A stretch of DNA of 64,000 bases, taken from contig OZ025868.1 in NCBI GenBank assembly GCA_964019415.1, forward strand, positions 14,332,991 through 14,396,990, read 5' to 3'. The translations under genes and the position numbers were made by a program. Origin of the DNA: Ianthella basta (Eukaryota; Porifera; Demospongiae; Verongiida; Ianthellidae). A model generated the notes under the pieces. The model was not told the DNA's origin. It did not search any database and was given only the letters and a program-made list of their open reading frames with translations. Shown here one piece after another: positions 19,890-62,312 of this stretch (position 1 is the stretch's first letter; every line of letters starts with the position of its first letter).

Positions 19890-22800
19890 ATGGCTGCTAA
19901 CTGCAAATTACTCGTCAGGAAACTGCCTCAACTCTTAAAGAAAGAAGAGAAGGAAGACCTCCTTAAGCAGTTTGGAGCGACTTCTGTAGAGGTTCTTCCT
20001 CCCAAAGGCCACATGGTAAGAGTCGCTAAGCTAAGTGATGAAGGACCAGTAGCCATATGCATCCAGTAGCCAGCTGGAAGTGAAGAATGAATATGCTGAT
20101 ATGGATTGGCGTTATATATGTACGTATACAGTCATATAGCTCCACGTGATCTTGAGCATGTTCTTGATCCGCTTGCAGAGTATCATGTAACACTGCACTA
20201 TAGTGTAGTGTATGACGTGGGACACGGGTATGCTGTGTACATGTGTATAGTATCTACTCTTGATATTATAAGATACATATGTGTTAGTGCATTCACTGTG
20301 TTCAGAGTTTTTATGATCTACATGCGCTCTATAGCTATAGCTCAGGTGATTACTTGGAGCTTTTCTCACTTGGTGTTACTTTTGTATCTTCTGCAGAGGA
20401 ATTGTGCCTTTGTCACTTTTCTTAGCACCAATGATGCACAAAGAGTGAGTTACGTATGTAGTTGTGATGACCATGTGCATGCAGTCATGTGATGATCATG
20501 TGACACCATAATGCCCTCAGGCAATGTTCCAACTGCACCAACTCCAAGTTCTTGGCAGTCGTCTGGTGGTGGAATATGCTCATGATGAGTCTCACCGTGC
20601 TATGCTGAAGGAAGCAGCTCGAGACAAGTGAGTACCAGTGAGTAGTGTTTTCAGACTACCAGCACACACTCATACTTGATAGGCCGTGCACTGTATGTGT
20701 GTTACTGCATTGGGCTGGGTAGTAGTATGTACAGTGGAACCTGTCTAAGACGGCCACCTATGGGCCAGTTCTGACTGACCTTTATAGAGAGGTGGCTGCT
20801 CTGCAAAGGTAGATTGCAATGCTTTATTGCTATTTGGGGCCAGGGAGGCTGGCTGATTTAGAGAGGTGGCTGCCTAACTCAGTGATCATTTTAGACAGGT
20901 TCCACAGTGCTTGAATGGGTGGCCATCTCTGAATACCCAGTGCTGTAGGTCTTTTCACACATGAGCAGGTGGACAGATTTCATTTTGAATGTTGTGTTTA
21001 GGAATGTGTCAGTCCTACTGCAGACATACATAGCTGCCTCAGTGAAATTCCTTATTTTCTGTTATTTTGTGTAAAAAGCCTTGTCGATGTCTTTTAGTGT
21101 CCTACGGCCATACCATGGTGAATGCACTGGTTCTCGTCTGATCACCGAAGTTAAGCAGCATTGGCCTGGGTTATAGTACTTGGATGGGTGACCGCCTGGG
21201 AATACCCAGTGCTGTAGGTCTTTTTGCACACAAACAAACCAACCGACTGCCGTCCTATTAGTACAATCTTCACTTTCCCAAAGGTTTGAATGTGTGTGCT
21301 TGTGTTCATCGGCACTTTGCATGTGACACATATGGTAACTGGTTAGTTCTGAGTACTCACCAAAGGCGGGTGAGGTTGGAAATGAATAAGACCTGCTTTA
21401 TCACTAAATGTTCTAAGGCAAGTGTGAATTTTTCAGTTAGTCAGTCTCCAGCATTTTCACATACCTACTGATTCGAGTGGCTTTGTGATGTGTTTCTATG
21501 TACCTCTTACCTCATTCAGGTGGAAATGCACTCAGACACTGGAGTCAAGGGGAGAGAAAGAGGAAGTTGACAATCTGGTGCGTGTTACACTATGCAAGAC
21601 ATCAACCAATGTCCTCTTGTGCACTTGATACCATTACAATTTCAATTCTTCTGCTTGTAAACAGTGAATACAATTTGGTTGCATAGTTATATGATAGTTG
21701 TATTGATAATCTGGAAGTTGGTGATATACGTACTTTATTAAGCACACACACACAAACATACACACACAACTCAAGTGCCTCAAGGTTACAAATTTTAGTG
21801 GCAACTGAATTTAGTGTTTTAAACGTCCATGATTTGATGGGTACTTACTTTAGCAATTTTTGTGTGTAAAAAGTTTCTTCTGTACAAAAATTTTCTAGTA
21901 CAACTTTTAGTCATGTTTGTACTACTTGCTAAATTTCGTATCTAAGTTTAGTAGTCCTGCTAAAATTGGTAGCCTTAAGATACACAAAGATATTTGCTAG
22001 GAATTACTACCTTTATGCATACATACACTCATTTCTCTAATGTGTGTTTGTTTGCAGAAACCTGAACTTGCAGTTGCTGTCAGTGAAACTGTACAAGCAC
22101 CAGTGGCCACTTCCCAAACTGAATTTGAAATGGAAGCTGAACAGGATAATGAGAAGCAGATTGAATCCAGTGAATCTGAGCTATCAAGTGATGAGGAGAC
22201 ACGAGAGATGCTTGCTACTCAACGTCGGTAGGTGCTTTGCATTACCTCTATATTACACACACGCACACACCTGTCCCCCCCCCCACCTGTCTCCCCACAT
22301 GTTCCCCCACCTGTCCCCCCACTTGTCCCCCCACCTGTCCCCCCACCTTGCCGATCCCCTCTGTCAAATCAATGTAATCTGCCATCCTTTGTAGAAAGGG
22401 TATTCATTATACTATTTTGTGGTATAAAGGGCCTTGTGGGATGTGTTTTAGTGTCCTACGCCCATACCATGCTGAATGCACCGGTTCTCGTCTGATCACC
22501 GAAGTTAAGCAGCATTGGGCTGGGTTAGTACTTGGATGGGTGACCGCCTGGGAATACCCAGTGCTGTAGGTCTTCTTTTTTCCTTGGAACTCTTCCAATG
22601 TCCCTTTTTCTCTTTTATCTATGACTACAAACATGGATGCTACTAGCCACTGTCACCCTTTGTCATCTCAGTGTAATCTCCCATCTCCTGTAGCTATTCT
22701 GCCACATTCCTGCGATACAAAAGACCTTGTAGATGTGTTTAAGTGTCCTACGGCCATACCATGCTGAATGCACCGGTTCTCGTCTGATCACCGAAGTTAA

Positions 22801-25800
22801 GCAGCATTGGGCTGGGTTAGTACTTGGATGGGTGACCGCCTGGGAATACCCAGTGCTGTAGGTCTTTTTTTCTTTCCTTGGAGCTCTTCCAATGTCCCTT
22901 ATTCTCTTTTATCTATGACTACAAACATGGATGCTACTAGCCACTGTCACCCTTTGTCATCTCAGTGTAATCTCCCATCTCCTGTAGCCTTTCTGCCACA
23001 TTCCTGTGATACAAAAGGCCTTGTAGATGTGTTTAAGTGTCCTACGGCCATACCATGCTGAATGCACCGGTTCTCATCTGATCACCGAAGTTAAGCAGCA
23101 TTGGGCTGGGTTAGTACTTGGATGGGTAACCGCCTGGGAATACCCAGTGCTGTAGGTCTTTTTTTCTTTCCTTGGAGCTCTTCCAATGTCCCTTATTCTC
23201 TTTTATCTATGACTACAAACATGGATGCTACTAGCCACTGTCACCCTTTGTCATCTCAGTGTAATCTCCCATCTCCTGTAGCCTTTCTGCCACATTCCTG
23301 CGATACAAAAGACCTTGTAGATGTGTTTAAGTGTCCTACGGCCATACCATGCTGAATGCACCGGTTCTCGTCTGATCACTGAAGTTAAGAAGCATTGGGC
23401 TGGGTTAGTACTTGGATGGGTGACCGCCTGGGAATACCCAGTGCTGTAGGTCTTTTTTCTTTCCTCGGAACTCTTCCAATGTCCCTTATTCTCTTTTATC
23501 TATGACTACAAACATGGATGCTACTAGCCACTGTCACCCTTTGTCATCTCAGTGTAATCTCCCATCTCCTGTAGCTATTCTGCCACATTCCTGTGATACA
23601 AAAGACCTTGTAGATGTGTTTAAGTGTCCTACGGCCATACCATGCTGAATGCACCGGTTCTCGTCTGATCACCGAAGTTAAGCAGCATTGGGCTGGGTTA
23701 GTACTTGGATGGGTGACCGCCTGGGAATACCCAGTGCTGTAGGTCTTTTTTTCTTTCCTTGGAGCTCTTCCAATGTCCCTTATTCTCTTTTATCTATGAC
23801 TACAAACATGGATGCTACTAGCCACTGTCACCCTTTGTCATCTCAGTGTAATCTCCCATCTCCTGTAGCCTTTCTGCCACATTCCTGCGATACAAAAGAC
23901 CTTGTAGATGTGTTTAAGTGTCCTACGGCCATACCATGCTGAATGCACCGGTTCTCGTCTGATCACTGAAGTTAAGAAGCATTGGGCTGGGTTAGTACTT
24001 GGATGGGTGACCGCCTGGGAATACCCAGTGCTGTAGGTCTTTTTTCTTTCCTTGGAACTCTTCCAATGTCCCTTATTCTCTTTTACCTATGACTACAAAC
24101 ATGGATGCTACTAGCCACAGTCACCCTTTGTCATCTCAGTGTAATCTCCCATCTCCTGTAGCTATTCTGCCACATTCCTGTGATACAAAAGACCTTGTAG
24201 ATGTGTTTAAGTGTCCTACGGCCATACCATGCTGAATGCACCAGTTCTCGTCTGATCACCGAAGTTAAGCAGCATTGGGCTGGGTTAGTACTTGGATGGG
24301 TGACCGCCTGGGAATACCCAGTGCTGTAAATCTTTTTTCTTTCCTCGGAACTCTTCCAATGTCCCTTATTCTCTTTTATCTATGACTACAAACATGGATG
24401 CTACTAGCCACTGTCACCCTTTGTCATCTCAGTGTAATCTCCCATCTCCTGTAGCCTTTCTGCCACATTCCTGCGATACAAAAGACCTTGTAGATGTGTT
24501 TAAGTGTCCTACGGCCATACCATGCTGAATGCACCGGTTCTCATCTGATCACCGAAGTTAAGCAGCATTGGGCTGGGTTAGTACTTGGATGGGTGACCGC
24601 CTGGGAATACCCAGTGCTGTAGGTCTTTTTTTCTTTCCTTGGAACTCTTCCAATGTCCCTTATTCTCTTTTATCTATGACTACAAACATGGATGCTACTA
24701 GCCACTGTCACCCTTTGTCATCTCAGTGTAATCTCCCATCTCCTGTAGCCTTTCTGCCACATTCCTGCGATACAAAAGACCTTGTAGATGTGTTTAAGTG
24801 TCCTACGGCCATACCATGCTGAATGCACCGGTTCTCATCTGATCACCGAAGTTAAGCAGCATTGGGCTGGGTTAGTACTTGGATGGGTGACCGCCTGGGA
24901 ATACCCAGTGCTGTAGGTCTTTTTTCCTTTCCTCGGAACTCTTCCAATGTCCCTTTTTCTCTTTTATCTATGACTACAAACATGGATGCTACTAGCCACT
25001 GTCACCCTTTGTCATCTCAGTGTAATCTCCCATCTCCTGTAGTCTTTCTGCCACATTCCTGCGATATAAAAGGCCTTGTAGATGTGTTTAAGTGTCCTAC
25101 GGCCATACCATGCTGAATGCACCGGTTCTCGTCTGATCACCGAAGTTAAGCAGCATTGGGCTGGGTTAGTACTTGGATGGGTGACCGCCTGGGAATACCC
25201 AGTGCTGTAGGTCTTTTTTCCTTTCCTCGGAACTCTTCCAATGTCCCTTATTCTCTTTTATCTATGACTACAAACATGGATGCTACTAGCCACTGTCACC
25301 CTTTGTCATCTCAGTGTAATCTCCCATCTCCTGTAGCTATTCTGCCACATTCCTGCGATATAAAAGGCCTTGTAGATGTGTTTAAGTGTCCTACGGCCAT
25401 ACCATGCTGAATGCACCGGTTCTCGTCTGATCACCGAAGTTAAGCAGCATTGGGCTGGATTAGTACTTGGATGGGTGACCGCCTGGGAATACCCAGTGCC
25501 GTAGGTCTTTTTTCTTTCCTGGGAACTCTTCCAATGTCCCTTATTCTCTTTTATCTATGACTACAAACATGGATGCTACTAGCCACTGTCACCCTTTGTC
25601 ATCTCAGTGTAATCTCCCTTCTCCTGTAGCCTTTCTGCCACATTCCTGCGATACAAAAGACCTTGTAGATGTGTTTAAGTGTCCTACGGCCATACCATGC
25701 TGAATGCACCGGTTCTCGTCTGATCACTGAAGTTAAGAAGCATTGGGCTGGGTTAGTACTTGGATGGGTGACCGCCTGGGAATACCCAGTGCTGTAGGTC

Positions 25801-28800
25801 TTTTTTTCTTTCCTTGGAGCTCTTCCAATGTCTCTTATTCTCTTTTATCTATGACTACAAACATGGATGCTACTAGCCACTGTCACCCTTTGTCATCTCA
25901 GTGTAATCTCCCATCTCCTGTAGCCTTTCTGCCACATTCCTGCGATACAAAAGACCTTGTAGATGTGTTTAAGTGTCCTACGGCCATACCATGCTGAATG
26001 CACCGGTTCTCATCTGATCACCGAAGTTAAGCAGCATTGGGCTGGGTTAGTACTTGGATGGGTGACCGCCTGGGAATACCCAGTGCTGTAGGTCTTTTTT
26101 CCTTTCCTCGGAACTCTTCCAATGTCCCTTATTCTCTTTTATCTATGACTACAAACATGGATGCTACTAGCCACTGTCACCCTTTGTCATCTCAGTGTAA
26201 TCTCCCATCTCCTGTAGCTATTCTGCCACATTCCTGCGATATAAAAGGCCTTGTAGATATGTTTAAGTGTCCTACGGCCATACCATGCTGAATGCACTGG
26301 TTCTCGTCTGATCACCGAAGTTAAGCAGCATTGGGCTGGGTTAGTACTTGGATGGGTGACCGCCTGGGAATACCCAGTGCTGTAAATCTTTTTTCTTTAC
26401 TTGGAACTCTTCCAATGTCCCTTATTCTCTTTTATCTATGACTACAAACATGGATGCTACTAGCCACTGTCACCCTTTGTCATCTCAGTGTGATCTCCCA
26501 TCTCCTGTAGCCTTTCTGCCACTTTAACCCTCTGTGAATCTGTACATAGCACCTGCTTGGCACTGTACACTCCTTGAAAGGTACCACTTGTCATGCCGTT
26601 TGGGCTTGCATACATTACATTCTGTGTCAGGAGGCTCTCCATGTGTTCTCCCTATTGTGCTGTGCAAATGAAGCTGACACCCTCTCCCGCACTACACCAG
26701 CCACTAGCCAGTTATTACATGACTAGCATTCCAGTGTGTCCTTAGTCTCGCGTAGCCCAGATCCTTTCCTTTTCGGTTATTGCACTATAGCCGGGTGGAA
26801 AGGGTCTGGGAGTTTTCTCAAGTGTAACTGCTCAATGTGCGTGGGAACCCTGACAAGGTGTGAATCTAACACCTCTTTGATGTGGTTCCACAAGTCGTCA
26901 TAAGCGAGTCAGCGAAAATGACACCGAGTGTTTGTGCGAGCGAAGACGAACTGGAACGAGAACGTATTACTGTGATAGTATGTGTGGCAGCAGCCGAAGC
27001 AGGGTTCCAAGATCTAAAGCCAGAGCAGATGCAAGCCATCTTAGAATTCATCGACGGTCGTGATATTTTCTTGTCGCTTCCTACTGGCTACAGTAAATCT
27101 CTTATTTACGGATTGCTGCCCTTGTCATTGAGCAAGATCCGAAAATACATCTGCCGCCGTTTGCAGTAGCTTACAGAAGTAGCAGTTCGCCATCTCAGTC
27201 TTCAATGCTATATAATTATACAGACATACAGGCGCATCTCCGGTGTAACACCTAACCAACACCTCTGAATTATCGTCCCACAATGGTGTTAAGTAAACAG
27301 TGGCTGTGCGTGGGTGGAACAGCTTGTGCTTAGGAAAACTCCCAGACACTTTCCTCCCTATTATGCAACAGCGGAAATGGAGGAAAGGGTCTGGGCTACG
27401 CAAGACTAGTGTGCCCTTCTTAAACTACTTTCTGAGGAAAACTCTGTGTCATACTCGTCCATTCAAAGCAACTTAGTTCCAATCTTGTGTCTCATGTGAA
27501 CTGTGTTGGACTGATTCAGTGATACCAGCAGCTGCAGTAGTGTAGGTTCCTGGTGTATGCTGGACTACTACATATGTATACAGACAATTTTATTAGAATG
27601 CATTTTGCATTTTCAGTACTATCATTTCACTGTTGTATTCTGGAATGCAATTATGTATGATTGCTGTTTACTTTTCCAGCTCGTCCAAGCCTTCAGTACC
27701 GTCAGTTCGGAAAGTTACTTTGGATCACTTGAAGAAGAGTTTGCCACCAAGCAAGATAGCAAGAGTGACAGAGGAGCGAGAGAGAGATGAGGTTTTGGTG
27801 CATGCACACACCACACACACTCACACACACACACACCACGCACGCACACACACACATGCACACACACACACACACATGCACACACACATGCACACATTCG
27901 TGCATGCTTACAAGCACCTATCCCCTTATGCTTGTAATGTTGTTACGTACATAGTTTATGACTGTTTTTTGCTATACGGAGATTTCGTGATTTTTACGTA
28001 GTCCCAATTGACATTTGCGCATTGCACTCGATCACGTGAGTAAAATATTGGAACGATAGGGTCACACGTGCCTGTGAGCCTATCGTTCCAATACTTTACT
28101 CACGTGATCGAGTGCAATGCGCAAATGTCAATTGTGACTAGAATTTGTGAAACCACTGTACTTATCTTTGCTGTATTATGCCTTTACTGCCCACCCCTAC
28201 CCCCCCCCCCCCCCCACACACACACATCAGGATGTAGTAGGAGAAGGAGTGAGCAAGCTAACCCTGGTAAGGTGGTGGAGTTGAGTGTGTCACTGAGTGC
28301 GGAGTGATCATGATCCATTTCATCCCTTTATGTAAATAGTGTATAAAAATTCCTTTAGAATTAAAGGGGATTTAGGAATGGCCAGCAGAAAAAGCATAGA
28401 AACAAGCAACAGTAACTCAACACCATGACGAACCACATTGCCATGAAGTTTGCAATGCATTCTAATTTTCTTGTAGCTACATGGGAGTAGCTAGCTAGGT
28501 ATTTGGGCCCATTTAGCTGCACAAGGAAATTAGGAATGCATAGCGAACTTCGTTCTTGAACACAGTGAGGTATAGCTTCTACCTAGCCACTCAGAAGTTT
28601 CAATTCGTTATGGTGCAAAGGAAGTGCTAGCTATTAATATTCCAAATAGCTGACAATTGTGCCAACACAATCTTAGCAAGAACAACATAGTGTATGTAGC
28701 TATTTTACTGTGAGTACAAATGTAGCTTGGAGCAATGTGTGCATTGAAGGATGCTGTAATACAGATGTGTAATGCCAAATTCACCCATAAGATGTGCAAC

Positions 28801-31800
28801 ATTAAGAAGCAAATCTCTTGGGATCTCAAGCTGTGATGGCTGAAATGAAGGATGTTTCCTTCGGACACAATGCACGGTGAAGTGGTAGTAAGTGTTCTCC
28901 ACTGCTGCTGTATTTCAGCTCTTTAGTGATGTACATAGTCTCTGTACTACCATCTGGTTTTGACTGGTTTCCATGGAAGTGATTGGTCGACAGAGGCATA
29001 GAGGAAGTACTAATTTAGCATAGTCCCTCCAAATCTTGTTTGGCTGGTTTGCATGAGTAGGATTGTTGGACAGAACCGTACCATTATAGAGGAAGTATGT
29101 GCTGGGGATGCTACATCATAATGAGTGTATTAATGCCATCTGAATTAACAAACAACTACAGACCAGTAGCCTGTAGTTGTTTGTTATTTCAGTTGTTTGT
29201 TATTTCAGTTGCTTGTTATTTCAGTTGTTTGTTATTTCAGTTGTTTGTTATTTCAGTTGTTTGTTATTTCATCCCTTAGCGGAATAACAGAATAGCGGAA
29301 TAAGGGATTTGGATATTAAAATGGTGGGCAACTCGTACGCAAACAAGTCTCACTGGCGTGTGCTTCTGCCCAGAAAGGTTCGAATTTTGAACGCCATGAA
29401 AGGAAATGGGTATATTGACAACTGCTTTAAAGTGGTTTGCACAAAAATGCTTTTTCAAATGAAATCAGCTGCTAATTGTAGTTTCCTCGCACAAAAAACT
29501 TGAGAAAGGCACCATACAACCCACTATCCACTCAATGGCAGAGTCGTCTGCCATTTTAACATCTAATTCCGTTATTCCGCTATTCCGCTATTCCGTTATT
29601 CCGTTATTCCGCCATTCCATTATTCCGTATTCCGTGTTTTAGTAATGCTCAGTAGCATAGGTGTTCTAAAAACAGCTCCAGTCAATCACAACTTGGTCAG
29701 ATGTATCTATGTATGAGTCAACCCCAAAGCACCCCTGTTCAGAATGTTTGTTTCATGTTGTCAGCTGGAGTTGTTTCATGACAACTGTGAGAACCACCAT
29801 ACAACGAAACAAACAAACTCCCTATTTTTTTTTCCATTCTCCATTCCCCGTTCCCTTCCTGCCATTCCTGGTTTTACAGGATCCCAGACTATGGTGCATC
29901 TGCATAAGCTACATAGCATTCAGCTGCCTTCTCATTTAACAGCTATAGCTAGCTAAGTGATTTGTGATCCATGTAGCTAGCTATCTGCTATCCGTGCTCT
30001 GGAGCTAGCTCATGATCATGTGTAGCACAATTGACAGTTGAAGCTAGCTACTCTCATGCATCAGCTAGCTAAGTGCAGTTTGCCATGTACTACGTCTGTG
30101 TGCTAATTCCATTGTAATAGCTAATTCTACAAATTGCCACATTGTGGAACAGTGAACACAAAATGAATATAGTGAGTAGCAAAGGAAATCAGTTGGTAAT
30201 ACATCAGCAAGACAGCTGTTTCATATATGCAAGCTACAGGAATAATCATGAAACAAAAGGCTGAGCAATAGCTAGTCAATTCACACCATTGTCTTTACCA
30301 ACTAGTACGTATGAGTGAATCCAGCTACGAAGAAATGATAACACACAACTCAGCTTGATAATGTTCACTTTCTGTTCTACCTTCATTCCTCAATTATGCC
30401 ATCTGGGTCTCTCTCCTGCTGTGGTCTTTCCCATGAGTAGTATACTTCCCTGTCATTATGTTTGTGGACTCCATGAATCTTTGCAATGCACTTCCGCACC
30501 ACTTTCCACCCCAAGTAGACTAGCAGACACACGGCTGGGAGGAGGACTAGGCTGAGGCGTATTACATCAGCCAACTGTGTCTGCCAATCAGAAGGGCCTG
30601 TCCAGTAGATGCCATACAATGTCATTGCATTGATGAGAGTGAGGAGGAGGAGGTTGGCTGTCTCCAGCCAGTTGTGTGTCTGGTTCTGAAATGGCTGCAC
30701 CAAGCAGTGGATGCCCATTATGGATGTCAGGCAAAGCTGAAAAATGGCTGCCCGGATCATCTTGTCAGAAACGAACGCAAATATACTCCAAATGACAACA
30801 CGATACACCAGGTAAATAGCTGCAAACATTTGAAAATGAGCTTTAAATCCTTTGTAGAAAGAGTCAAGGAAGGGCTTGATTCTCTGACAGCCAACAAAAT
30901 ACTTCTCCAAATGAACCGCCCTTAGGCACATCGGCACCACAGCATTGTAGAAGAGAAGCAAGGGGAGTACCATCAAAAGGGCTACCACAGCTATGGCAAT
31001 ACTGGCATAGGGTATATGGGAGATGCTCAGGTATTCTTCACTACCTTGTATGTGTGACCTCACACTATTGTCACTTGAAGTTGTATAAATGTCCTGCAGT
31101 GACAGCAGATTGAGGGAAAGCTGAATCAACTTTCCATAGCAGATGATGAGGATCGTGACAAAACCATCAACAGTGGGGTTATCTGGATTCACCAGAGTAT
31201 TGTTCCAGTGCCTGAAGCCCCTACGAGCTCTTCCCCAAGCACCTCTAAGGCAGGAGAAGCAGCATTCCTGCTGACGAATGAGAATGATGGCCAACAGAAG
31301 AGTGACAAGAAGAACCACTGGCTTACTGCCTTCTGCTGCTACGACCTCAAAGGCATTGGTGGCGGTAGGAAACATGCACACGTATCTCTTGACGTTTCCA
31401 AGGAAGTTGAGTTGCCAGATGTCATAAAACACTCCAATGGGGGGGTACATGTGCTTGTAGTCAATGCCCATTAGCAATGGAGGGAGTACCTGGCTGTAGA
31501 ACACCAGTGAGTGGAGCCATCCGTGTGTTATACTGAGCCTCGTGAAGAGAAGGAAGATGCAGAAGAGTACCAGTGGGACCACCTCCATGAGAAGAAACAG
31601 AACTACCCCACCCACTGCTCCACCTGCATCAGCAGGCAACCAGCACCGTACACATTCTACAAGCCCCATAGTGACAACTTGAGGGGAATACCTAGGAGAA
31701 CATTTTCCACAAAGTGTTCCTTCCCTCCCCTGCATGCAAAAAGGAAACACTCTTGTGTTGGTGACATTTAACTGTTGTAACTCAGCGGCACTTTGGTTAC

Positions 31801-34800
31801 AGTACCCCACAGGACAGTATCCAATTGCAAACCGGTCACTGTGGACACCAGCCCACATAAATGGATTCACTGTCAAGTTATTGCCAGTGCAAGCAATGAG
31901 TCCAGGGTAGGGAATCGATCCATTTATTGGACTGTTTCCACACTCACACATCATTGATTCATAGCTATAAAGTCTGCCAACTGGACATGGTATGAGTTTG
32001 TATGTTACCTCCTGCTTGAATAACTTTTGTCCCATATTCTGAAAAATGACTTTGGTCTCATTGTATTTTTTGCCAAGAGCTGTATTGTACCTCCATTTCC
32101 AGTGTGTGTGAGCCAGTTTGTGGTATTTGCATTCAAGTTTCTCGCACCAGGCTCAACAGAAGTCAAGAGGATGGTACCAATATTGACACCCAGATCATCT
32201 GTAGTGGATATGGGGACATTGACTGTCTCTCCAGAGTAAAATTGTTGTTCCTTTTTATCAAAGGTGAACCTGTCAACATCTGTGCTGATAGTACTGTTAT
32301 GGTAAACAGAGGTCTCACAAACACCGGGTTTGTAGGTGAAAACACTTCCCCATCGAAAGAGTTGTTTTGTAGCATTTGCCAAATACTCTGTGTCTACAGT
32401 TGAGTAGGGCCAGAGACATGGGATCAGTGATGTGGTGTATATGTCATTACCACGAAACCCGGCACAATTATTAGTAAACGTCACAGTGAAGTTCCAATCA
32501 TCAGGGCGTGCATAGTAATCAGCAGGCCTAAAGAAACAATTAAAGAAATACACGGCAATGTTGTTCCCCACATACTGGGCATAGATGGCACCTCCATACA
32601 AATCCGCCGAATTATTCTCAAAGTGCAGCTGGGCACCCCACCACACACGAAGGTATGCGTAACCCAACAACAACACTGCTCCTCCACGAATGCCTCTATT
32701 GTTAGTAAATGTCATCACCGAATCATTCATCACATCAATGCCAGTGACTACAGCTGCTAGGGCACTCCCCTCATTGCCGTCAAAGGAGGTATTCCCACAA
32801 AACTGAACAGGAAATGAATCAACATACACAATGCCCGTACCCTCGTAGCCATGTGTGTCTGTACTTGAGTAATTCCCTGCATTACTCATGAATGTGCAGC
32901 TGTCAAAGACAACAGTTGGCAGGACACCTTCAGTCACTGCAAGCCACGAGTGAAGGTTCACAGCTGCTCCAATAAGACCCCAATTATGTGTCCAGTTACA
33001 GTTGGTGAAGGAAATTGTATTAGTAGCCTTTGCTTGATTGGGTTCTCTGGCACTGTAGAAGGCAACACCTCCTCCAACCAGGCATTGATTGGAATTATAA
33101 GTGACATCAACAACCTGCACAGAATTGTACTCCGCAATTTCACTATCTAGTGCAATGAACCCTATTCGACTACCTCCACCTGTGCCATTGTTCTGGTAGT
33201 AGGTGTTCTTTGGTGGGCGGTAGCAACCGTTGTATGCAACTGTACCACCACTGTGCACAACACTGTTGTTACGGGTGTTATCTTGAAATTCTATGAACAC
33301 ACCACCACCCCATACTGCATTGTTGTACATGAACCGGGAAGAGTTAATGTTTATATTGTTTCCAGTGGCATTACCTTTGAAGAAGATGGACAGCCCACCC
33401 CCTCGACCAAATGCCTGGTGATCTAGTCCCTGGGGCTTAATGAATAAGGTGTTGGTTGAGATATCAGATGCAGTGTTGTTCTCAAACATGCAATCACTGA
33501 TAGTGTATTCTGAGTGGGAGTTGTAGCCTGCTGGGCGGTCACAGTTTGCATCCACCACTCCAGGATCACAATATGTAAACTCGACATAAAGGCCTGCCCC
33601 ACCTGGGTACTTGTCCGTCTCATTTTGAGGAACTTTGCTGTACTCAAATTTACAACTCTCAAATAACACCTTCCCAGCTACATTGTACAGAGTCACTCCC
33701 ACACCCGGACTGCTTTCAACACTTACTTCATCTAAAGTGAGTGAATGGACCCGTTCAAAGTAGAGAGCTGACCGGAAAAGAAGAGTCGTAGTGTTAGTGT
33801 CCTTGCTGGTGCTATTGTGAAGAGCTCCACAGCGTACAAACCGGAGGTTCATCAAGGTAATGTTGCTGCCTGTGAAGCCTAGTCCAGCGTCTGGCGACTC
33901 GCTGCAGTTGATAACAGCAGCAGCAGGTGACCAGTTGACTCCGCGAATCATTACATTCTCATAAACCAAGTTGAGTGCGCCACTCCCGCTAGAGAGGTCT
34001 TCTGGTTGCAAGTAGAACGTCCCATACAGTTCGATGCACACGGAAGAGCCATTGAAGTGCTGCGCCTCCTTCAAGGAATCGTTGAGGTAAGTAGTGGTGG
34101 TACTGTTATACAAAAAGTGGTGTTGGGCAGCAGAGCAGTCGAGAGCAGCGGGAGGGGTCTGGCCACTAGCGCAAGAGAACGGCTGCAGGACGCAACTGAA
34201 AAGTAGCAACATAAACTGGGCGAGACGTCCACAGGGCAGGCGCGGCATTGTGGCGCTGTACGTTTGCTGCGATTGGGCAAATGTACATATAATTAACGTT
34301 TGGAGCCATGCATGCAGCGTTTGAAGGTAGCCAGAGCAGCTCTAACCACCTACCAACGCAATAATGGTGTATGCATTGTACCTAAAGTACGTGAACTCTC
34401 TCGTTTGTTAATTATCTAAGTAGCTACTTACCTAAGTTCGAAGGCGCTTTGTATGGAGTGAGCCTGTTAGTAGCTTGCGGACTTGTGAAGCTCTATGCTC
34501 GCGTCTGTCGACGCGTGACTGTGCAGCTATGGATATGATCAGCAGACCTTCGCCACTTTAATTTATAGGGAGTCACCATGTTCACAATGTTGAAGCACGG
34601 AAGTAGGACGCACGTGACTAGATGTTGCGCAAGCACTCTTCGACGTATACGTACACTCTCGGAACGCTTAAGGCAGAGGGATTATAATGAGATGAATGAA
34701 AGGAGTACTTAAGGAGAGCGACATAAGAGATCGATCGATGATTTGCCGACTAGCTAGCTATGGCTAGCTACTGAGATAGCTAAGGTAACTGGTGGCTATC

Positions 34801-36613
34801 GTTAAATTTTGGTATGCTTGCAAGCCGATAGCATCTCCAGTTGTAATGCAGCGCTAGCTTTATGGTGGTATACAACCCTAGTAGCAATGTACCTTGGTGC
34901 ACATGTGTGCATGGGTGGGCTTGTAGCTATGTGTGAATGAAGAAATTGGTCCATGGAGTAGATATAGTATAGTGCATCAATTGTTCACTGTCATGCATGT
35001 GATGTGTAGAGCACGGTAGATACAGGATATTTGCATTCTGTGTGCAGTAGCTAGCTGAATAGGAAGGAATCGCATGTGCACCATCTCAGCAGTGTCCAAT
35101 ATAGAGACTACAGACAAAGGATATACAAATAAGACCAGGAGTAAATCATAATAATGTGACTACTTAATACTTAAATACTGTCACTATCAGATGGCTGCAA
35201 TGAAATATTCTGAAGGCACCTTCTCTTGATGCAGCACTGTTTGAGTTCGCCTGGACCACCAAATGTAGCCTTGTCCAAGCAAAACCGGCACCCACCACAA
35301 TCATCTGCTTGGCAGGCCTTGCAGTCTCCACACCTCTTATGTTTACGCTTCTGTCCTGTCTCACTTGTATGTCCTACTAGCGTCAAGGAGGATTGGCAAG
35401 TAGGGTGTTGGTGTTTCTCCATTTCCTACAAATAATGTACAACAGTAGTCATACATAGCACATGCATGCATGTGTGTTACTTGAAATAGACTATTAATAG
35501 TTGAATACCTTTCGAAGACGCTCAGCCTTTCTTCCAACTCTGTATCTTTGTCTGAAATCTGCTCTGTTTCGCCCCAGCCTACGATGTAAATGTGATTCTA
35601 GAGATGCATACACAGATGTCTTCTTTGACAGATTCATGTATTTCTTCTTGATGCGTCATGCCCGTTCCAGAAGAGACAGGGGTCTGAGAGCAAGTCCTTC
35701 GCTTGATGGTAATTCAGCTTTGAATATCTTAATCATCTCATGCAACTTTTCCAGCATGGTTTGAAGGTGCTCAGCGCTGCAGCAGGTGTGTGAGAGGATT
35801 TCAATTACTTTGGTGGCATTTAAGACCTTCCGACGTAATGCTCTTAATCTGTATTCAAGTGGGATAAGAACTATGCACATACTCACCCGGATTTGTGGAC
35901 TTGAAGGGCTAGCTTAAGTGGAGCTGTCTGTGGCTATAAGCATGGTGGTGTTGGGACCATGCTCTTGGTCACTCCACTCTTCATGCATTGCCAAAGAGTC
36001 ATCATCAGAACATATGAGGTCAAGTGGGTGATCTGGTAAGTTGTCAGCGATGGTTGGGCAGACAGCATCAAGTATACCCCTTTCTGTTCCAGTAACTCTG
36101 CCCACCTTGGTTTCTGCATACACACATGCATAGTGTACATACATGCACAAAAACATAAATGTGATCCCCTTTCCCTCCCCTCCCTTCCTCTCCCCCCTCT
36201 CATGCCCTCTCCCTTGCCTGCCCTTCCACCTCCCCCTCCCCTCCCCTCCCCTCTCCTTTCCCTCTCCCTTCCCTCCCCCTCCCCCTCCCATCCCCTCCCC
36301 TCCCCTCCCCTCCTCTTCCCTCCCCTACCCCTCCCATCCCCTCCCCTCCCCTCCCCTCCCCTCCCCTCCCCTCCCCTACCCCCTAGCCTCACACTGAGAT
36401 AACACTGCACATCCCAACTGACTGGTCGGCATCTGCTGGTCCTCCCACACATAGTCAGGTGGGGAGCATTGCCATGGCAACAACTGCAGAGGTAACCATG
36501 GAGAAGGAAGTGGATGAAGACACCTCAAAATGGAGGGAGGAGAGGGAGGAGACACTGAAACACATTCGAGAGAATAGTCTAACAGATGAAGGTACAGGGG
36601 GAACTCTCTGCAC

Positions 36614-36690
<77 letters not shown>

Positions 36691-36722
36691 TGTGTGCGCG
36701 CGTGTGTGTTGTGTGTCTGTAT

Positions 36723-36776
<54 letters not shown>

Positions 36777-38136
36777 ACGCGCGCATGTGGGTATGAGTGG
36801 AAGTAGTGTAGATCTGTTGCCTCACTGCACTTGGTGTGTAAGTGCATTTGTCTGCAATTCCGTTTGTGTTGCAGTATTGTGTTTGATTTCATTATTAAAT
36901 GCACTATGCTCATTCCCCCTTCCCCCCCTCCCCCCACCACCACTACAGAGCGTCAGGAGTTGGCCGTGTTTCGCAGCTACCACCCAGGAGACCCCTCCCC
37001 CAAGCTATACATCAAGAACCTCGCCCGATCAGTGACAGAGGAGGTAAGTAGGAATGGGCACATCGTCACAGCTTAGATTGATTCACACTTTGCACCTACC
37101 TATATACCCACTCCATTACTTGACATGTTGAACCAGGAGATGTGTGGCATTGGCTAGGATGTACATATGAATGGATCGCGAGAAGATTTGTAACAATATT
37201 GATCAATCAGCACGTTTCAGCCTCATAGGCCTTCATCATCTGCATCTAGTTAGCAAACAGCATATCTGTGTAGCAATGAGGTTCAGGGACATATAATTAT
37301 TTATATTTCCATGTACTTGGCCATGGCTTTTACTTGGGTTTCAGTTTCTTCGACTTTGAACTTTCACCACTGTTCTTCATAGCTTCTGTCTTCATTGCAG
37401 GACCTGAGGAAAGTTTACAGTATGTTTGAGCAATCAGATGTGGATCAACCTTGGTATGTTGGGCGAGTGGGCAGTGGGGTGGTCTCTCATGCTACCCCTG
37501 TGCAGCATGTACGTGTATGTATGTGTATGCCACGTCTTCACTGTTTTATGTTTGTATCCACAATCATACGTACTGTATGTGCATGCTCTTCATGCACTGT
37601 ACTCATGCTCTTCCAAGCACCCGTATACACCACCCTTGTATTCATACATCTCTACCCATATTTCACCCTCCTTTGTTACCTGACTATTCCCTTTCCTTTT
37701 CTCCCTCAATCCCCTTCTCCGCTTAGCTCCATCAAGCTGATGACTAGTGGTCGTATGAAGGGGCAAGCGTTTGTCTCCTACTCCTCTATTGAAGAAGCTG
37801 CTGAGGCTCTTAAAGTGACCAATGGCTACAAACTGCAAGAGAAACCCATTGTGGTTGTATCCTACACCTGCATTTAAGAGCCCAGGGGCTAGTATTGTTG
37901 TAGTTCAAGAAGTTGCACACTATACCGAACGAGGGTAGCCAAGTTGTATTGGAGTGCTGTATGACTATATTGTAGATGCTATAGTGCAAACTGTTTAGAT
38001 GGTGTATGTTTAGTTCTGCATTCTCCCAGACTCAGAATTGTGATGTCAAGTGGCTGTCTGCTGTTGTTAGTCCGTGTTCTAAGATTGCGTTAAGTATATT
38101 TCCTTAACTCTTCCTCAGTATTTTTCACGTTCATGA
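19890..38136 (+). CDS. RNPC3: U11/U12-65K minor-spliceosome protein, two RRMs
   Basis: Twelve exons fit by splice signals and phase: 19890-20015, 20397-20444, 20521-20627, 21520-21577, 22058-22227, 27680-27791, 28231-28266 (weak), 36459-36591, 36949-37043, 37401-37453, 37727-37856, 38119-38136. Total 361 residues (human 517; the linker is shorter). RRM1: RNP2 LLVRKL, then KKEEKEDLLKQFGA, RNP1 RNCAFVTF, LGSRLVVEYA. The linker has acidic ESELSSDEETREML, like the human one. RRM2 is preceded by LAVFRSYHPGDP and has RNP2 LYIKNL, RNP1 KGQAFVSY, NGYKLQEKPIVV, ending YFSRS. In other animals this protein bridges U11 and U12 snRNPs, its C-terminal RRM binding U12 snRNA. The last intron looks U12-type. 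Introns 3 and 5 hold 5S genes; intron 7 (8.2 kb) holds an antisense gene. The donor after exon 6 (GTTTTG) is weak. Confidence 0.88.
20701..20955 (+). pseudogene. 5S rRNA relic split by a MITE
   Basis: Left part 20701-20727 (ACTGCATTGGGCTGGGTAGTA) matches the middle of the 5S gene. Right part, about 20909-20955 (CTTGAATGGGTGGCC ... TACCCAGTGCTGTAGGTC), matches its 3' end with its T run. Between them sits the MITE 20732-20906, inserted at the point corresponding to GTA/CTTGG of the gene. The 5' third of the gene is not recognisable. Confidence 0.75.
20732..20906. mobile_element. Mariner-type MITE (TA target)
   Basis: Terminal repeats CAGTGGAACCTGTCTAA and TTAGACAGGTTCCAC, with TA before the left end. 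The right outer bases read AGTG where the copy ending at 7142 has TGTA, so the right target base has probably changed. Pogo/Tc1-mariner-type MITEs have this structure. No transposase. Confidence 0.75.
21099..21220 (+). rRNA. 5S rRNA gene, divergent solitary copy
   Basis: 122 bases in RNPC3 intron 3, same strand as the host. It has the internal promoter (GAAGTTAAGCAGC, then CTTGGATGGGTGACCGCCTG) and ends in a T run. It differs from the array consensus by a two-base insertion (TTATAGTACT for TTAGTACT) and three or four substitutions. Upstream GTGTAAAAAGCCTTG corresponds to the TATA-like element of the array spacer, so it may still be transcribed. Confidence 0.85.
22274..22348 (+). repeat. C-rich tandem repeat after RNPC3 exon 5
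   Basis: Runs of CCCCCC separated by ACCTGT/ACTTGT, about six units. On the opposite strand these are six G-runs of four or more, a potential G-quadruplex, about 50 bp past the donor. Confidence 0.8.
22453..22572 (+). rRNA. 5S rRNA, array unit 1
   Basis: First unit. Differs at the start (CCTACGCCC for CCTACGGCC). Ends in TCTTCTTTTT, a T run interrupted by C. Confidence 0.95.
22745..22864 (+). rRNA. 5S rRNA, array unit 2
   Basis: Consensus unit: box A region GAAGTTAAGCAGC, box C region CTTGGATGGGTGACC, T7 terminator. The transcript would enter the large ribosomal subunit. Confidence 0.97.
23039..23158 (+). rRNA. 5S rRNA, array unit 3
   Basis: Differs in loop B region (CTCATCTG for CTCGTCTG) and in box C (GGGTAACC for GGGTGACC). 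Confidence 0.93.
23333..23452 (+). rRNA. 5S rRNA, array unit 4
   Basis: Carries the linked pair CACTGAAGTTAAGAAGC (for CACCGAAGTTAAGCAGC), shared with units 6 and 12; the changes touch box A. Confidence 0.93.
23626..23745 (+). rRNA. 5S rRNA, array unit 5
   Basis: Consensus sequence, T7 terminator. Confidence 0.97.
23920..24039 (+). rRNA. 5S rRNA, array unit 6
   Basis: Same linked box A variant as units 4 and 12. Confidence 0.93.
24213..24332 (+). rRNA. 5S rRNA, array unit 7
   Basis: 3' end GCTGTAAATC for GCTGTAGGTC, which weakens the terminal stem; also CCAGTTCTCG. The 3' variant is shared with unit 14. Confidence 0.9.
24506..24625 (+). rRNA. 5S rRNA, array unit 8
   Basis: Consensus except CTCATCTG, shared with units 3, 9 and 13. 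Confidence 0.95.
24800..24919 (+). rRNA. 5S rRNA, array unit 9
   Basis: Consensus except CTCATCTG. Confidence 0.95.
25094..25213 (+). rRNA. 5S rRNA, array unit 10
   Basis: Consensus gene; its upstream spacer has the fuller TATA-like GATATAAAAGG. Confidence 0.97.
25388..25507 (+). rRNA. 5S rRNA, array unit 11
   Basis: Two private changes: GGGCTGGATTAG and GTGCCGTAGG, the second in the terminal stem. Confidence 0.92.
25681..25800 (+). rRNA. 5S rRNA, array unit 12
   Basis: Linked box A variant shared with units 4 and 6. Confidence 0.93.
25975..26094 (+). rRNA. 5S rRNA, array unit 13
   Basis: Consensus except CTCATCTG. Confidence 0.95.
26269..26388 (+). rRNA. 5S rRNA, array unit 14
   Basis: Last unit. 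Carries GCACTGGTTC and the 3' GCTGTAAATC variant of unit 7. Its downstream spacer is truncated. Confidence 0.9.
26744..27407. mobile_element. TIR element with RecQ-like fragment and 11-bp target duplication
   Basis: Imperfect terminal inverted repeats of about 75 bp start AGTCTCGCGTAGCCCAGA and end CTGGGCTACGCAAGACT. The element is flanked by AGTGTGTCCTT (26733-26743) and AGTGTGCCCTT (27408-27418), a probable 11-bp target duplication with one mismatch. Long TIRs with a 9-11 bp duplication suggest a Mutator-like element, but no transposase is present. It encloses a RecQ-like coding fragment. Confidence 0.7.
26918..27169 (+). pseudogene. RecQ-type helicase N-terminal fragment
   Basis: 84 codons from ATG 26918 to TAG at 27167-27169. 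The peptide has the RecQ/SF2 start: FQDLKPEQMQAILEFIDGRD (Q-motif-like region) followed by a Walker A LPTGYSKSLIYGLLP, where the usual GxGKS reads GYSKS. All later helicase motifs are absent. It lies within the TIR element and so is cargo of the element or the stub of a longer parent. Confidence 0.65.
27801..27897 (+). repeat. Imperfect (CA)n tract
   Basis: CA runs with CATG interruptions directly after RNPC3 exon 6. Confidence 0.9.
28005..28134. repeat. Near-perfect palindrome, 56-bp arms
   Basis: Arms 28005-28060 and 28079-28134 match at 55 of 56 positions, with an 18-base loop that itself contains CACACGTGCCTGTG. No target duplication is obvious. Likely a tiny foldback element in RNPC3 intron 6. 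Confidence 0.85.
28338..28552. mobile_element. Foldback element, truncated copy
   Basis: It begins AGTGTATAAAAATTCCTTTA and continues GGAATGGCCAGCAGAAAAAG, identical in order to the left arm of the element at 62591-63058. It then has the middle part in which AGCTAGCTAG is central and stops early in the right arm. Confidence 0.7.
29175..29270 (+). repeat. 16-bp tandem repeat, six copies
   Basis: Six near-identical units of AGTTGTTTGTTATTTC. Each junction reads TTTGTTATTTCAG, which looks like a 3' splice site. Confidence 0.9.
29278..29634. mobile_element. Inverted-repeat element with GAATA-rich ends
   Basis: The left end (GCGGAATAACAGAATAGCGG) and right end (repeated CCGCTATTCCGTTATTCCG) are inverted repeats built from ATTCCG-like units. 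The centre contains a 64-codon frame with no recognisable domain. Likely a small foldback/MITE in RNPC3 intron 7. Confidence 0.5.
30383..34248 (-). CDS. Large secreted beta-helix / multi-span membrane protein, antisense in RNPC3 intron 7
   Basis: Two overlapping frames on one strand, without introns. 34248-32005 (747 residues): signal peptide (FMLLLFSCVLQPFSCASG), then parallel beta-helix repeats rich in N-glycosylation sites, with strands such as ITLMNLRFVRCG, LTLDEVSVESS and GGGVAFYSA. 32035-30383 (550 residues): a Cys-rich linker (GREGTLCGKCSPRYSP), then eight or nine hydrophobic spans (GGVVLFLLMEVVPLVLFCIF to LVLLPAVCLLVYLGW). The frames differ by one base at a run of five T near 32042; six would give one protein of about 1,295 residues. 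So it is a frame-broken gene or a homopolymer error. Such proteins are numerous in sponges; their ligands are unknown. Confidence 0.8.
34249..35170. other. RNPC3 intron 7, 5' flank of the antisense gene
   Basis: This stretch should hold the promoter of the beta-helix gene. No TATA is clear. It is rich in the palindrome TAGCTAGCTA (for example 34750-34775). Confidence 0.4.
35171..36113 (-). pseudogene. CXXC zinc-finger gene, probably decayed
   Basis: The last exon, 35425-35171, encodes a CXXC DNA-binding finger: KRCGDCKACQADDCGGC, then CLDKATFGGPG, KQCC and RRC, the two C-x2-C-x2-C clusters and KFGG-like motif of CFP1/MLL/DNMT1-type fingers that bind unmethylated CpG. The exon before (35848-35509) encodes a basic helical segment but has an in-frame TGA (35658-35656, arginine CGA in the expected reading). 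A further stretch (36113-35887) has exon-like borders but its phase does not fit. Hence likely a pseudogene, perhaps of a mobile-element protein. Antisense inside RNPC3 intron 7. Confidence 0.6.
36166..36383 (+). repeat. Polypyrimidine tract (CCCCT)n
   Basis: About 218 bases almost free of purines, mostly CCCCT units, ending 75 bp before RNPC3 exon 8. The opposite strand has dozens of G-runs. Confidence 0.92.
36617..36776 (+). repeat. (TG)n microsatellite in RNPC3 intron 8
   Basis: TG runs with GCGCG and GTTGTG interruptions starting 25 bp after the exon 8 donor. Confidence 0.95.
37210..37243 (-). ncRNA. Hammerhead-ribozyme-like relic
   Basis: Minus strand: ATGATGA (the core usually begins CTGATGA), a stem GGCC/GGCT with a short loop, then GAAACGTGC. 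A near match to the core seen at 1716 and 62816, within RNPC3 intron 9. Probably inactive. Confidence 0.35.
37857..38118 (+). other. U12-type intron, last intron of RNPC3
   Basis: Donor GTATCCTAC (37857-37865; consensus RTATCCTTT), branch site TTCCTTAAC (38100-38108; exact consensus), acceptor CAG at 38118, 11 bases after the branch A. Length 262, phase 0. Removal joins KPIVV to YFSRS, matching the human order VVQFARS. No pyrimidine tract longer than the few bases around the acceptor is present, as expected for U12-type. Confidence 0.88.
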
Positions 38137-51343: not shown

Positions 51344-53096
51344 ATGAAGGCAATTTTCACCGCGGTAAGTTGGCGGCTAGAGCTAGTGAATGCGCTCCAA
51401 CATACATGTGAGCCGTCGCTGGGAGTGATGGCTTTCAAACGATCCCCTGTTCCCTCCGTCTCTGTAGGTGGCGATGGCTACGACTGTCGTTGCAGCTCTG
51501 TCATGGGTTCTCTATATCTACGGAATGGCGCTCCGTCGCGCTGGAGGGTACGTACGTTAGGGAGGCGCGATTCCCACAACCCAAACTAGAATTTTAGCTA
51601 ACTCCAAGAACACACAGCTATCCCTCACCCTTAGCTATTGATCGCTATGTACGTAGCAAGATAGTGATCACCCAACCCAGGGACGCTGTATTAGACATAG
51701 CGGTACTTGTAGGCATTAGGAGAGTAGAAAGCATCATTAGGTTGTGATAGCTACCGGTAGAAATTCCAGAACACAAGATTAGCTAGTTCATAATTTCCAG
51801 AGCAATTCATTCAGTTTGTGCAACAAAAGTACTCTAGGGGTAGTTTGCTAAAGGGTCCGAGCGGATCAGTCATGTTGTATTACTTAAAATTTCACTTGGT
51901 GTAAAGATTTTTGAATAGTGATCTTATAAACACTTCCTGTGAACCATTATGGCTGTAAGCTGTTTGTGATGCAGCTTTTCTTGCTTTGTATGCAGGCAGG
52001 ACCTCTTTGGGTTTGTCAATGCCATCTACTGGGGAATGGCTGTGGGCAGCCCATTTGCATTCACAGCCATGTTTGTGCACCCTTTCATTGTGGACAATTT
52101 CAAGAGCTGGATCCTCAGGGGACTCTGGGTCCTATGCGTATCCTCACTTGACTGCAGACAGCATTTCAGTATATTAAGAAGCTTTTCATACATTTTAAGC
52201 TGGGAGATCTTCACTGAAGAATCTAGTCAATGGTTTAGGTGCATCAAGTATTTAGTAGAAAACAGCAGTGTGAACTGCTGAAATGCTTGATGTAATTATA
52301 ACCTATTCTGCTAGTGGCGTCTGTGAAGAGCTCCGAGTTCAACGTTACATGTCCTTCTCTACCACATACTGCCTCATTTGCTGCTAACAGACATAGTGTG
52401 TAATGGTATAGTATGTGTGTTGGCATTATCCCTATGTGTTGCTCTCTCTCACACACACATGTGACATTATACATGTGTAGCACCACATCTAGCCTTCTCC
52501 TCTTGATGGAGTTGCATGATTAGTGACCTTAAAACATGCAATTGTCGATCTTCCTTGACAAAGAACAGTACATTCTTCTTGTGGTTTGGCACCTCTGCTT
52601 TGCCGGAGCCATTCTCACAGTGTCCTCCAGAGAGGTTGACATGGTGACGTCAGGTGGATTCCTTGTCAACAATGACCTTGGGCTCATATTCTGTGGCTCT
52701 CTTGGTAGTATCATTTTTGGGGTGAGTCGGTCAACACAAAACAGGTTTTCATGTCGAAACGTTTTATGTGTGTGACATCTGATGATTTCTGCTCACATCA
52801 CAACACATACACAAAGATGGACACATTCATAAGCACTACTACAGCTCTCACTCTCACACGCACACAAACACACTCACGTATGTACTCAAACCATACACAC
52901 AGCACTCATACACAAAAACCACACAAGCACACACACACACAAATGCACACACACACACACTGACAGCACATACACAGGTATGTTTAACTAATATAATGAT
53001 TACCTTGTCCACTGTATACCTACACACACACAGGGAATGACCGTTGGTGTCTACTACGCCAGAGACCTCGTTCAGATCAAAGACCTCAGGCCATAG
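51344..53096 (+). CDS. Four-span membrane protein, paralogue 1
   Basis: Five exons: 51344-51364, 51468-51547, 51996-52137, 52569-52721, 53034-53096; 152 residues. Four hydrophobic spans: TTVVAALSWVLYIYGM, WGMAVGSPFAFTAMFVH, LWVLCYILLVVWHLCFAGAI and IFCGSLGSIIFGGMTVGVYY; short charged C-terminus (ARDLVQIKDLRP). No known signature is evident; size and topology resemble claudin/MARVEL-like tetraspans, but the claudin W-GLW-C-C motif is absent, so I leave it unnamed. Intron 3 looks U12-type. The gene at 53795 is a paralogue with matching exon structure (shared GSP/TPFA, FAGA/GG and FGGM/GGL motifs). Confidence 0.72.
52138..52568 (+). other. U12-type intron in four-span paralogue 1
   Basis: Donor GTATCCTCA (52138-52146), branch site TTCCTTGAC (52551-52559), acceptor CAG at 52568, 10 bases after the branch A. 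Length 431, phase 0. Splicing joins LWVLC to YILLVVW, keeping span 3 continuous. Confidence 0.85.
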
Positions 53097-61640: not shown

Positions 61641-62312
61641 TTGCAATCAGTGCATATATCTGTCACTATACATCACAAGAATACCAATCTCACTTTTGCA
61701 TTTTACATATAGTACTGGTATACAGTTTTATGCTACTATATCTATCTTCCTTGCCACATAGGCTCCAGTGATGGTGAATAATGAAGTTCATTCAATCATC
61801 AAACACTTACAGTACATTACATACATTTTGTGAATATCCTTGTTTGGTAGTTCAGCAGTGACCGTTACCCTCAGTACCTCATTAGCTCGCTAATGAATGT
61901 TTACAACTTTTCCTGCAGTAAACACACAAGCCAGTGTTCCTTGACCAACCGGAAAGTGAGTGCCACTCTCTGCAGGTTGTCTCCTCTTCCTTGTACCTCT
62001 TCAACACTAGTACTGGACACTTGGGAAAATTGTTTACTGCCATCAGCATAGTTGCTCAGATATAATTATGCATACCCACATAACTATAGCTATATAAATA
62101 CATACTATATATTACAGAATGTGTCCACTTATGACTTGATGGTATTCACACACATACTGCCCGGGAGAATCTCCACTGTCTACCAATTCTCCTTCCCAAA
62201 GACAATGCAAGCAAGCAAATTGTCCTTTTTGACCATTACGGGCCTACCTTTCTTCCTTGTTACTGCTATTTGTTTTTGAGATTTGAGAGTGCACTGCACC
62301 GAATTGAAGAGA

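Follow-up and report, generated by a model that had tools for sequence, protein, structure and literature searches.

Feedback through minor splicing has been described for several splicing-factor genes. The genes of the minor-spliceosome proteins 48K and 65K are regulated by a U11-binding splicing enhancer (USSE), a tandem of unused U12-type 5′ splice sites; by activating a U2-type 3′ splice site upstream of it, the tandem forms a negative loop, which a review describes as shared by plants and animals but missing from Diptera (PMC3584512). In SRSF10, CENATAC, and Drosophila dUrp, minor splicing determines the production of productive or unproductive mRNA of the splicing factor itself (PMC7244321; PMC8329584; PMC3584512), and SRSF10 and CENATAC carry competing major and minor 5′ splice sites. 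Human RNPC3, the gene of 65K, is called a minor-intron gene in passages that do not state the intron position (PMC6865273), and its minor splicing leads to a longer 3′ untranslated region according to an excerpt that cites USSE work (PMC8871696); no description of the position or conservation of the RNPC3 intron was found in the passages of the literature searched. Here, we describe the last intron (intron 10) of RNPC3 in a stretch of 64,000 nucleotides (nt) from the sponge Ianthella basta (GenBank assembly GCA_964019415.1, contig OZ025868.1, positions 14,332,991 to 14,396,990, forward strand), referred to as the window, in which coordinates are given unless a locus is named.

The locus resembles a USSE in that a U12-type 5′ splice site lies close to the end of a gene for a minor-spliceosome protein; by contrast, there is a single site, to all appearances a working donor, and a search of the plus strand from 19000 to 39500 found no tandem of U12-type 5′ splice sites. 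It resembles the minor intron of vertebrate RNPC3 in the gene and in the exit codon, after which vertebrate-like reads continue with V-S-F, although the donor is weaker here (A at +8 and C at +9) and the protein ends with YFSRS, whereas the human protein continues with ARPKQDPKEGKRKC. Furthermore, it shares with SRSF10, CENATAC, and dUrp the principle that minor splicing would decide between productive and unproductive mRNA of a splicing factor; a word scan of exon 10 and intron 10 revealed only three GTATG words (37753, 37959, and 38004) as possible U2 donors. Intron 10 is probably a conserved, ordinary yet obligatory U12-type intron that makes the output of 65K dependent on the minor spliceosome.

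Splice signals of intron 10

Intron 10 (37857..38118, plus strand) is 262 nt in length and lies in phase 0. Its 5′ splice site GTATCCTAC (37857..37865) matches seven of the nine letters of GTATCCTTT, agreeing with the U12-type donor RTATCCTTT over the first seven positions; its branch site TTCCTTAAC (38100..38108) is exact, with no second exact occurrence on either strand of the window; and its 3′ splice site CAG (38116..38118) has its G 11 nt past the branch A. Splicing would join exon 10, ending with KPIVV, to exon 11, which encodes YFSRS and a stop codon, and the read-through frame of the retained intron is VSYTCI followed by the stop codon TAA (37875..37877). A sequence-only reading of the window had described these letters, coordinates, and two translations, all of which proved exact.

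Chance is a poor explanation of these signals. In 200 first-order Markov simulations of the window, pairs of an exact 7-nt donor and an exact branch site at most 3000 nt apart occurred 0.065 times per simulated window on both strands, and the joint chance of the donor and branch signals for a given GT-AG intron is approximately 9e-8. Against the consensus, intron 10 scores 7/9 for the donor and 9/9 for the branch, compared with 2–5/9 for the donors of the other nine introns and 5–7/9 for their best branch-like words near the 3′ end, and it is the only one of the ten RNPC3 introns with U12 signals. The claim that RNPC3 here ends in a U12-type intron is borne out by these scores; intron 10 is most likely a genuine U12-type intron, which the minor spliceosome would remove.

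The identity of the gene, likewise proposed from the sequence, is supported by both of its RNA recognition motifs (RRMs). The best matches of RRM2 are the human 65K structures 5obn (87.9 bits) and 3egn (87.7 bits), ahead of RBM41 (9xu3, 79.6 bits), and KLYIKNL and MKGQAFV in the model provide, by eye, the YQF triad of RNP2/RNP1 described in part of PMC11039992. RBM41 has a single RRM and an N-terminus unlike that of 65K, neither of which applies to the model; it was rejected owing to its lower RRM2 score and to an RRM1 exon found upstream on the same strand and joined in frame.

Matches to all four minor small nuclear RNAs are present in the genome. U11, U12, U4atac, and U6atac each gave one match above the Rfam gathering score, scores having been computed for the top candidates of each search. 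The U12 RNA retains GAGUAAGGAA, and its canonical branch-pairing element GUAAGGAA is complementary to TTCCTTAAC except for the bulged A; the 5′ end of U11, starting with UAAAAGGGC, is also canonical.

The exit codon in other genomes

Homologues were collected by a first protein search, which gave six matches, a second using the read-through frame of the exon, which gave seven, including a divergent set reading KPIVV-VSF, and a profile (A1) built from eight reads with V-S columns included, whose 448 matches are represented here by the best 120. The exon core is present in 122 of the 126 collected proteins, P0017 being that of the window. Searches of viral and genome collections for the DNA encoding these homologous exons yielded none; the donor letters of other species are accordingly those suggested by translated reads. 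Reads near the window's exon in sequence are termed sponge-like, and the vertebrate-like reads are likewise named by sequence and derive from unlabelled genomes.

The homologous unspliced exons are left at the same codon, KPxVV|. Among the 122 reads, 58 continue with V-S-F, 23 with V-S followed by L, S, Y, C, or W, and 17 with V-S and another third residue. All 13 vertebrate-like reads, four of which equal human over 35 residues, show V-S-F and then diverge, with 3.03 bits at the next residue; in a second cluster, F is third in 28 of 30 reads (30 of 32 under an alternative clustering) and the next residue has 3.2 bits. Thus, entropy in the two large clusters rises from 0–0.42 bits at the third residue to 3.03–3.2 bits at the next. 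Such V-S-F followed by scatter is what the translated footprint of a nine-base GTATCCTTY donor is expected to look like. A mixed group of 19 reads has varied third residues (3.05 bits), with V-R in some reads; this pattern would be expected from U2 donors and provides a contrast, and because the third residue is free there, the footprint appears to discriminate between the two intron types. Five of the six sponge-like reads have S as their third residue, the sixth being the window itself.

A U12-type intron at this position is therefore probably shared beyond the species and looks ancient rather than locally invented; intron 10 most likely belongs, as a conserved member, to a known class already implied for human. 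The sequence-only reading had presented it as something special here that takes the place of the USSE, a view that the shared position in vertebrate-like and other reads does not favour.

Proposed dependence, retention, and feedback

Under the favoured explanation, intron 10 is an inherited U12-type intron whose position within strand 4 of the C-terminal RRM is fixed; its normal removal by the minor spliceosome would complete the RRM. An intron-retaining transcript would lack the correct terminus of this U12-binding domain, and it would presumably be nuclear or non-productive; transcripts with unspliced minor introns often stay nuclear according to passages of PMC5473595 and PMC12332006. Production of 65K would then require an activity that 65K itself supports, and poor minor splicing could limit 65K. 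Because 65K would depend on minor splicing, the feedback would be self-reinforcing, that is, positive and opposite in sign to that of the USSE. Dependence follows from the anatomy of the gene; a physiological sensor role of intron 10 is an attractive possibility. If this explanation is correct, a self-referential intron at one codon across very different genomes would provide a natural readout of minor-spliceosome activity, lodged in the gene of a component of that same spliceosome.

The sequence-only reading had gone further, suggesting that low minor-spliceosome activity, through retention, yields a functionally different 65K with a changed last strand. In its favour, no exon junction follows the stop after VSYTCI in the model, and the mRNA might evade junction-dependent decay. 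The read-through tails speak otherwise. With stops or contig ends taken as tail ends, tails are 3–45 residues long in the 13 vertebrate-like reads, two of which end directly after VSF at a stop or contig end, 3–63 in the 30 reads of the second cluster, and 6–48 in the six sponge-like reads, and these three groups lack strong conservation beyond the third residue. Across six groups with 84 reads, partial likeness is confined to two eight-read clusters of close relatives (QLKGKPIVV and HGYIL), in which some later residues are common to six of eight reads and are explained by recent common ancestry as well as by selection. Because the tails vary in sequence and in length, the read-through end shows no sign of a selected protein feature, and a selected alternative RRM end is poorly supported. 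Moreover, the sign of the feedback would be destabilising, and human p.R502X, which truncates the protein in the region of the RRM2 end, is disease-associated in compound heterozygotes with reduced mRNA, as described in part of PMC3958305. Such a switch is accordingly very improbable. One collected protein, P0102 (eukprot scpid110784, "RNA-binding protein 40"), reads through the splice site and, by eye, starts with intron sequence; it may represent a partly spliced pre-mRNA with the intron retained or a gene prediction. We take its scpid prefix to denote a calcareous sponge.

An equally remote explanation is that the donor acts chiefly by binding U11 as an enhancer that defines exon 10, like a USSE in which one of the sites doubles as a real donor. 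Downstream-bound U11 can activate an upstream U2-type 3′ splice site (passages of PMC8329584 and PMC3584512), and exon 10 measures 130 nt; nevertheless, the gene model implies a single site used as a donor, with no tandem in the stretch of plus strand scanned, and the arrangement is accounted for by ordinary exon definition.

The most probable of the rival accounts holds that intron 10 is a plain relic, an old U12-type intron whose loss or conversion is rare and which is spliced well enough in all cells to have no regulatory effect. Its presence at the same position in many genomes fits this account, as does a title naming neutral processes for much of minor-intron evolution (PMC10639083). The reads outside the V-S-F pattern lend it further weight: of the 122, 11 have V-R and 17 have V-S with a varied third codon, the residue being one that codons beginning with T cannot encode, and these donors look U2-like; eight have QFARS-like coding without an intron. 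Together these reads suggest change of type or loss without obvious harm. A further five reads have other continuations. After near-identical reads were collapsed to 108, the classes V-S-F, V-S with L, S, Y, C, or W, V-S with another residue, V-R, QFARS-like, and other numbered 48, 21, 17, 10, 7, and 5, respectively. On the other side, V-S-F is almost invariant in the two large animal-like clusters, and the gene encodes a component of the minor spliceosome, so that some dependence exists. We regard the relic account as unlikely, though deserving of serious consideration.

The same exceptional reads weigh against a conserved and obligatory U12-type intron, and several further observations must be set beside them. 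The A1 counts are biased toward V-S reads, given the V-S columns of the profile and the use of its best 120 of 448 matches. GTAAGT also reads V-S without fixing the third codon, so the assignment of intron type elsewhere rests on that codon, and the S found third in the sponge-like group fits GTATCCTCN but equally GTAAGTAGY. In the window, GTATCCTAC departs from the consensus at +8 (A) and +9 (C), pairing contiguously with the genome's own U11 over 4 positions, compared with 6 for GTATCCTTT, and 13 of the 15 bases preceding CAG, where U12-type introns have no polypyrimidine tract, are pyrimidines, partly those of the branch site itself. Furthermore, U6atac differs from the Rfam consensus in having UGAGCCGAGAG in place of UGAAAGGAGAG, its element pairing with the 5′ splice site being GAGCCGAGAG rather than GAAAGGAGAG (C12:1821463-1821587; L029 1501-1625, minus strand), which would weaken the predicted pairing with any TATCCTT donor. 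This is the sole U6atac copy found in the genome, and because it has 15 nt perfectly complementary to the genome's U4atac, a TATA-like box upstream, and a ACCACAAG block, the gene looks functional. By eye, the ACCACAAG block occurs upstream of all four minor small nuclear RNA genes (L027, L028, L029, and L030) and is likely a promoter element of such genes in this lineage.

Finally, U12-type introns may be few in this genome, because an exact branch followed by CAG barely exceeds its control: TTCCTTAACT..CAG has 43 matches genome-wide, including that of the window, versus 30 in the control, for which reason the matches are mostly due to chance. Among 20 of these 43 loci examined, an RTATCCTT donor lay within 700 nt in two, of which L093 joins an open frame and L085 does not. 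The L093 intron (C20:4216394-4217155), running from GTATCCTTATTG to TTCCTTAACTTTAAAACAG over 169 nt in phase 1 with an exact branch, is probably U12-type, keeping the usual donor despite the altered U6atac; its frame presumably resembles inositol-trisphosphate kinase.

A candidate for the negative loop was found in a candidate 48K gene (SNRNP48), recognised by a CHHC finger with 2vy4 as best match and GTSF1 as a close second. It contains a USSE-like tandem TATCCTTCAGTATCCTC located 45 nt after a U2-type 3′ splice site (C18, L037 6394-6470), with a 14-nt candidate mini-exon with a GTAAGT donor between the two; its inclusion would shift the frame and reach a stop seven residues later. This arrangement is the plan described for SNRNP48 in passages of PMC5473595 and PMC8329584. 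Such a tandem, a pattern picked post hoc, occurred on the plus strand in none of 300 simulated 17-kb sequences. Strict TATCCTT tandems number 67 + 150 genome-wide versus 44 + 57 in a reversed control, and the second 48K site, TATCCTC, falls outside this strict count; owing to these numbers, a tandem alone is weak evidence, and the case for a 48K USSE rests on the place of the tandem and the mini-exon. A USSE circuit, mini-exon included, is thus suggested for 48K in this animal, and regulation in this genome may run through a USSE for 48K and, at most, through a real U12-type intron for 65K.

A more elaborate proposal would have the 65K intron act, since early animals or before, as a positive-feedback gate paired with the 48K USSE loop, together forming a threshold or on–off switch whose threshold is set by the weak donor; the vertebrate 65K USSE would then be a later addition or have been lost here. 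We hold this proposal to be decidedly doubtful. With an intron (positive) loop and a USSE (negative) loop that can be separated, regulation as a reason for keeping minor introns would become testable.

The RNPC3 locus and its surroundings

The RNPC3 model comprises 11 exons and ten introns on the plus strand (19890-38136), with an open frame of 373 amino acids and two RRMs. Exon 1 (19890..20015) encodes the start codon and the first part of RRM1, modelled on similarity to human RNPC3; with an approximate human query, residues 26-68 match at 58% identity (E=1.2e-4), and the N-terminal match lies at contig positions 14352889-14353017 (window 19899-20027, plus strand). RRM1 continues through exon 2 (20397..20444), joined in frame, and ends in exon 3 (20521..20627), where the same query gives 50% identity to human residues 80-103 (E=0.005). 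Exon 4 (21520..21577), exon 5 (22058..22227, an acidic linker), exon 6 (27680..27791), and exon 7 (36387..36591) follow in frame, the boundary of exon 6 being uncertain because of its weak donor GTTTTG and that of exon 7, with donor GTACAG, less certain. The central part of the model is provisional because of these poor donors and because the central linker of human 65K is not recognisable in it; the finding on intron 10 is unaffected. RRM2 starts in exon 8 (36949..37043, 53% identity to human residues 403-434), continues in exon 9 (37401..37453), and extends in exon 10 (37727..37856) through strand 4 with KPIVV (56% identity to human residues 456-498). The coding part of exon 11 (38119..38136) ends with the stop codon TGA, and its YFSRS aligns with human QFARS. 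A 137-amino-acid single-RRM gene starting at 36474 had been considered and was dropped after the RRM1 exon was found. With respect to a second RNPC3 copy, the best match of the spliced query outside the locus has 44% identity over 52 residues (C8, E=3.5e-5).

Several introns of the gene are occupied by other features. Intron 5 contains fourteen tandem 5S rRNA genes with a unit of approximately 294 bp (22454-26388, plus strand), and a lone plus-strand 5S rRNA copy lies in intron 3 (21100-21220). The large intron 6 (27792-36386) harbours minus-strand open frames at 30383-32152 and 32005-34341 and a cysteine-rich frame at 35171-35425, so that other genes appear to be nested within it. Elsewhere in the window, allowing one mismatch in the branch site yields additional plus-strand candidates for U12-like introns at 52138-52568 and 61834-61960.

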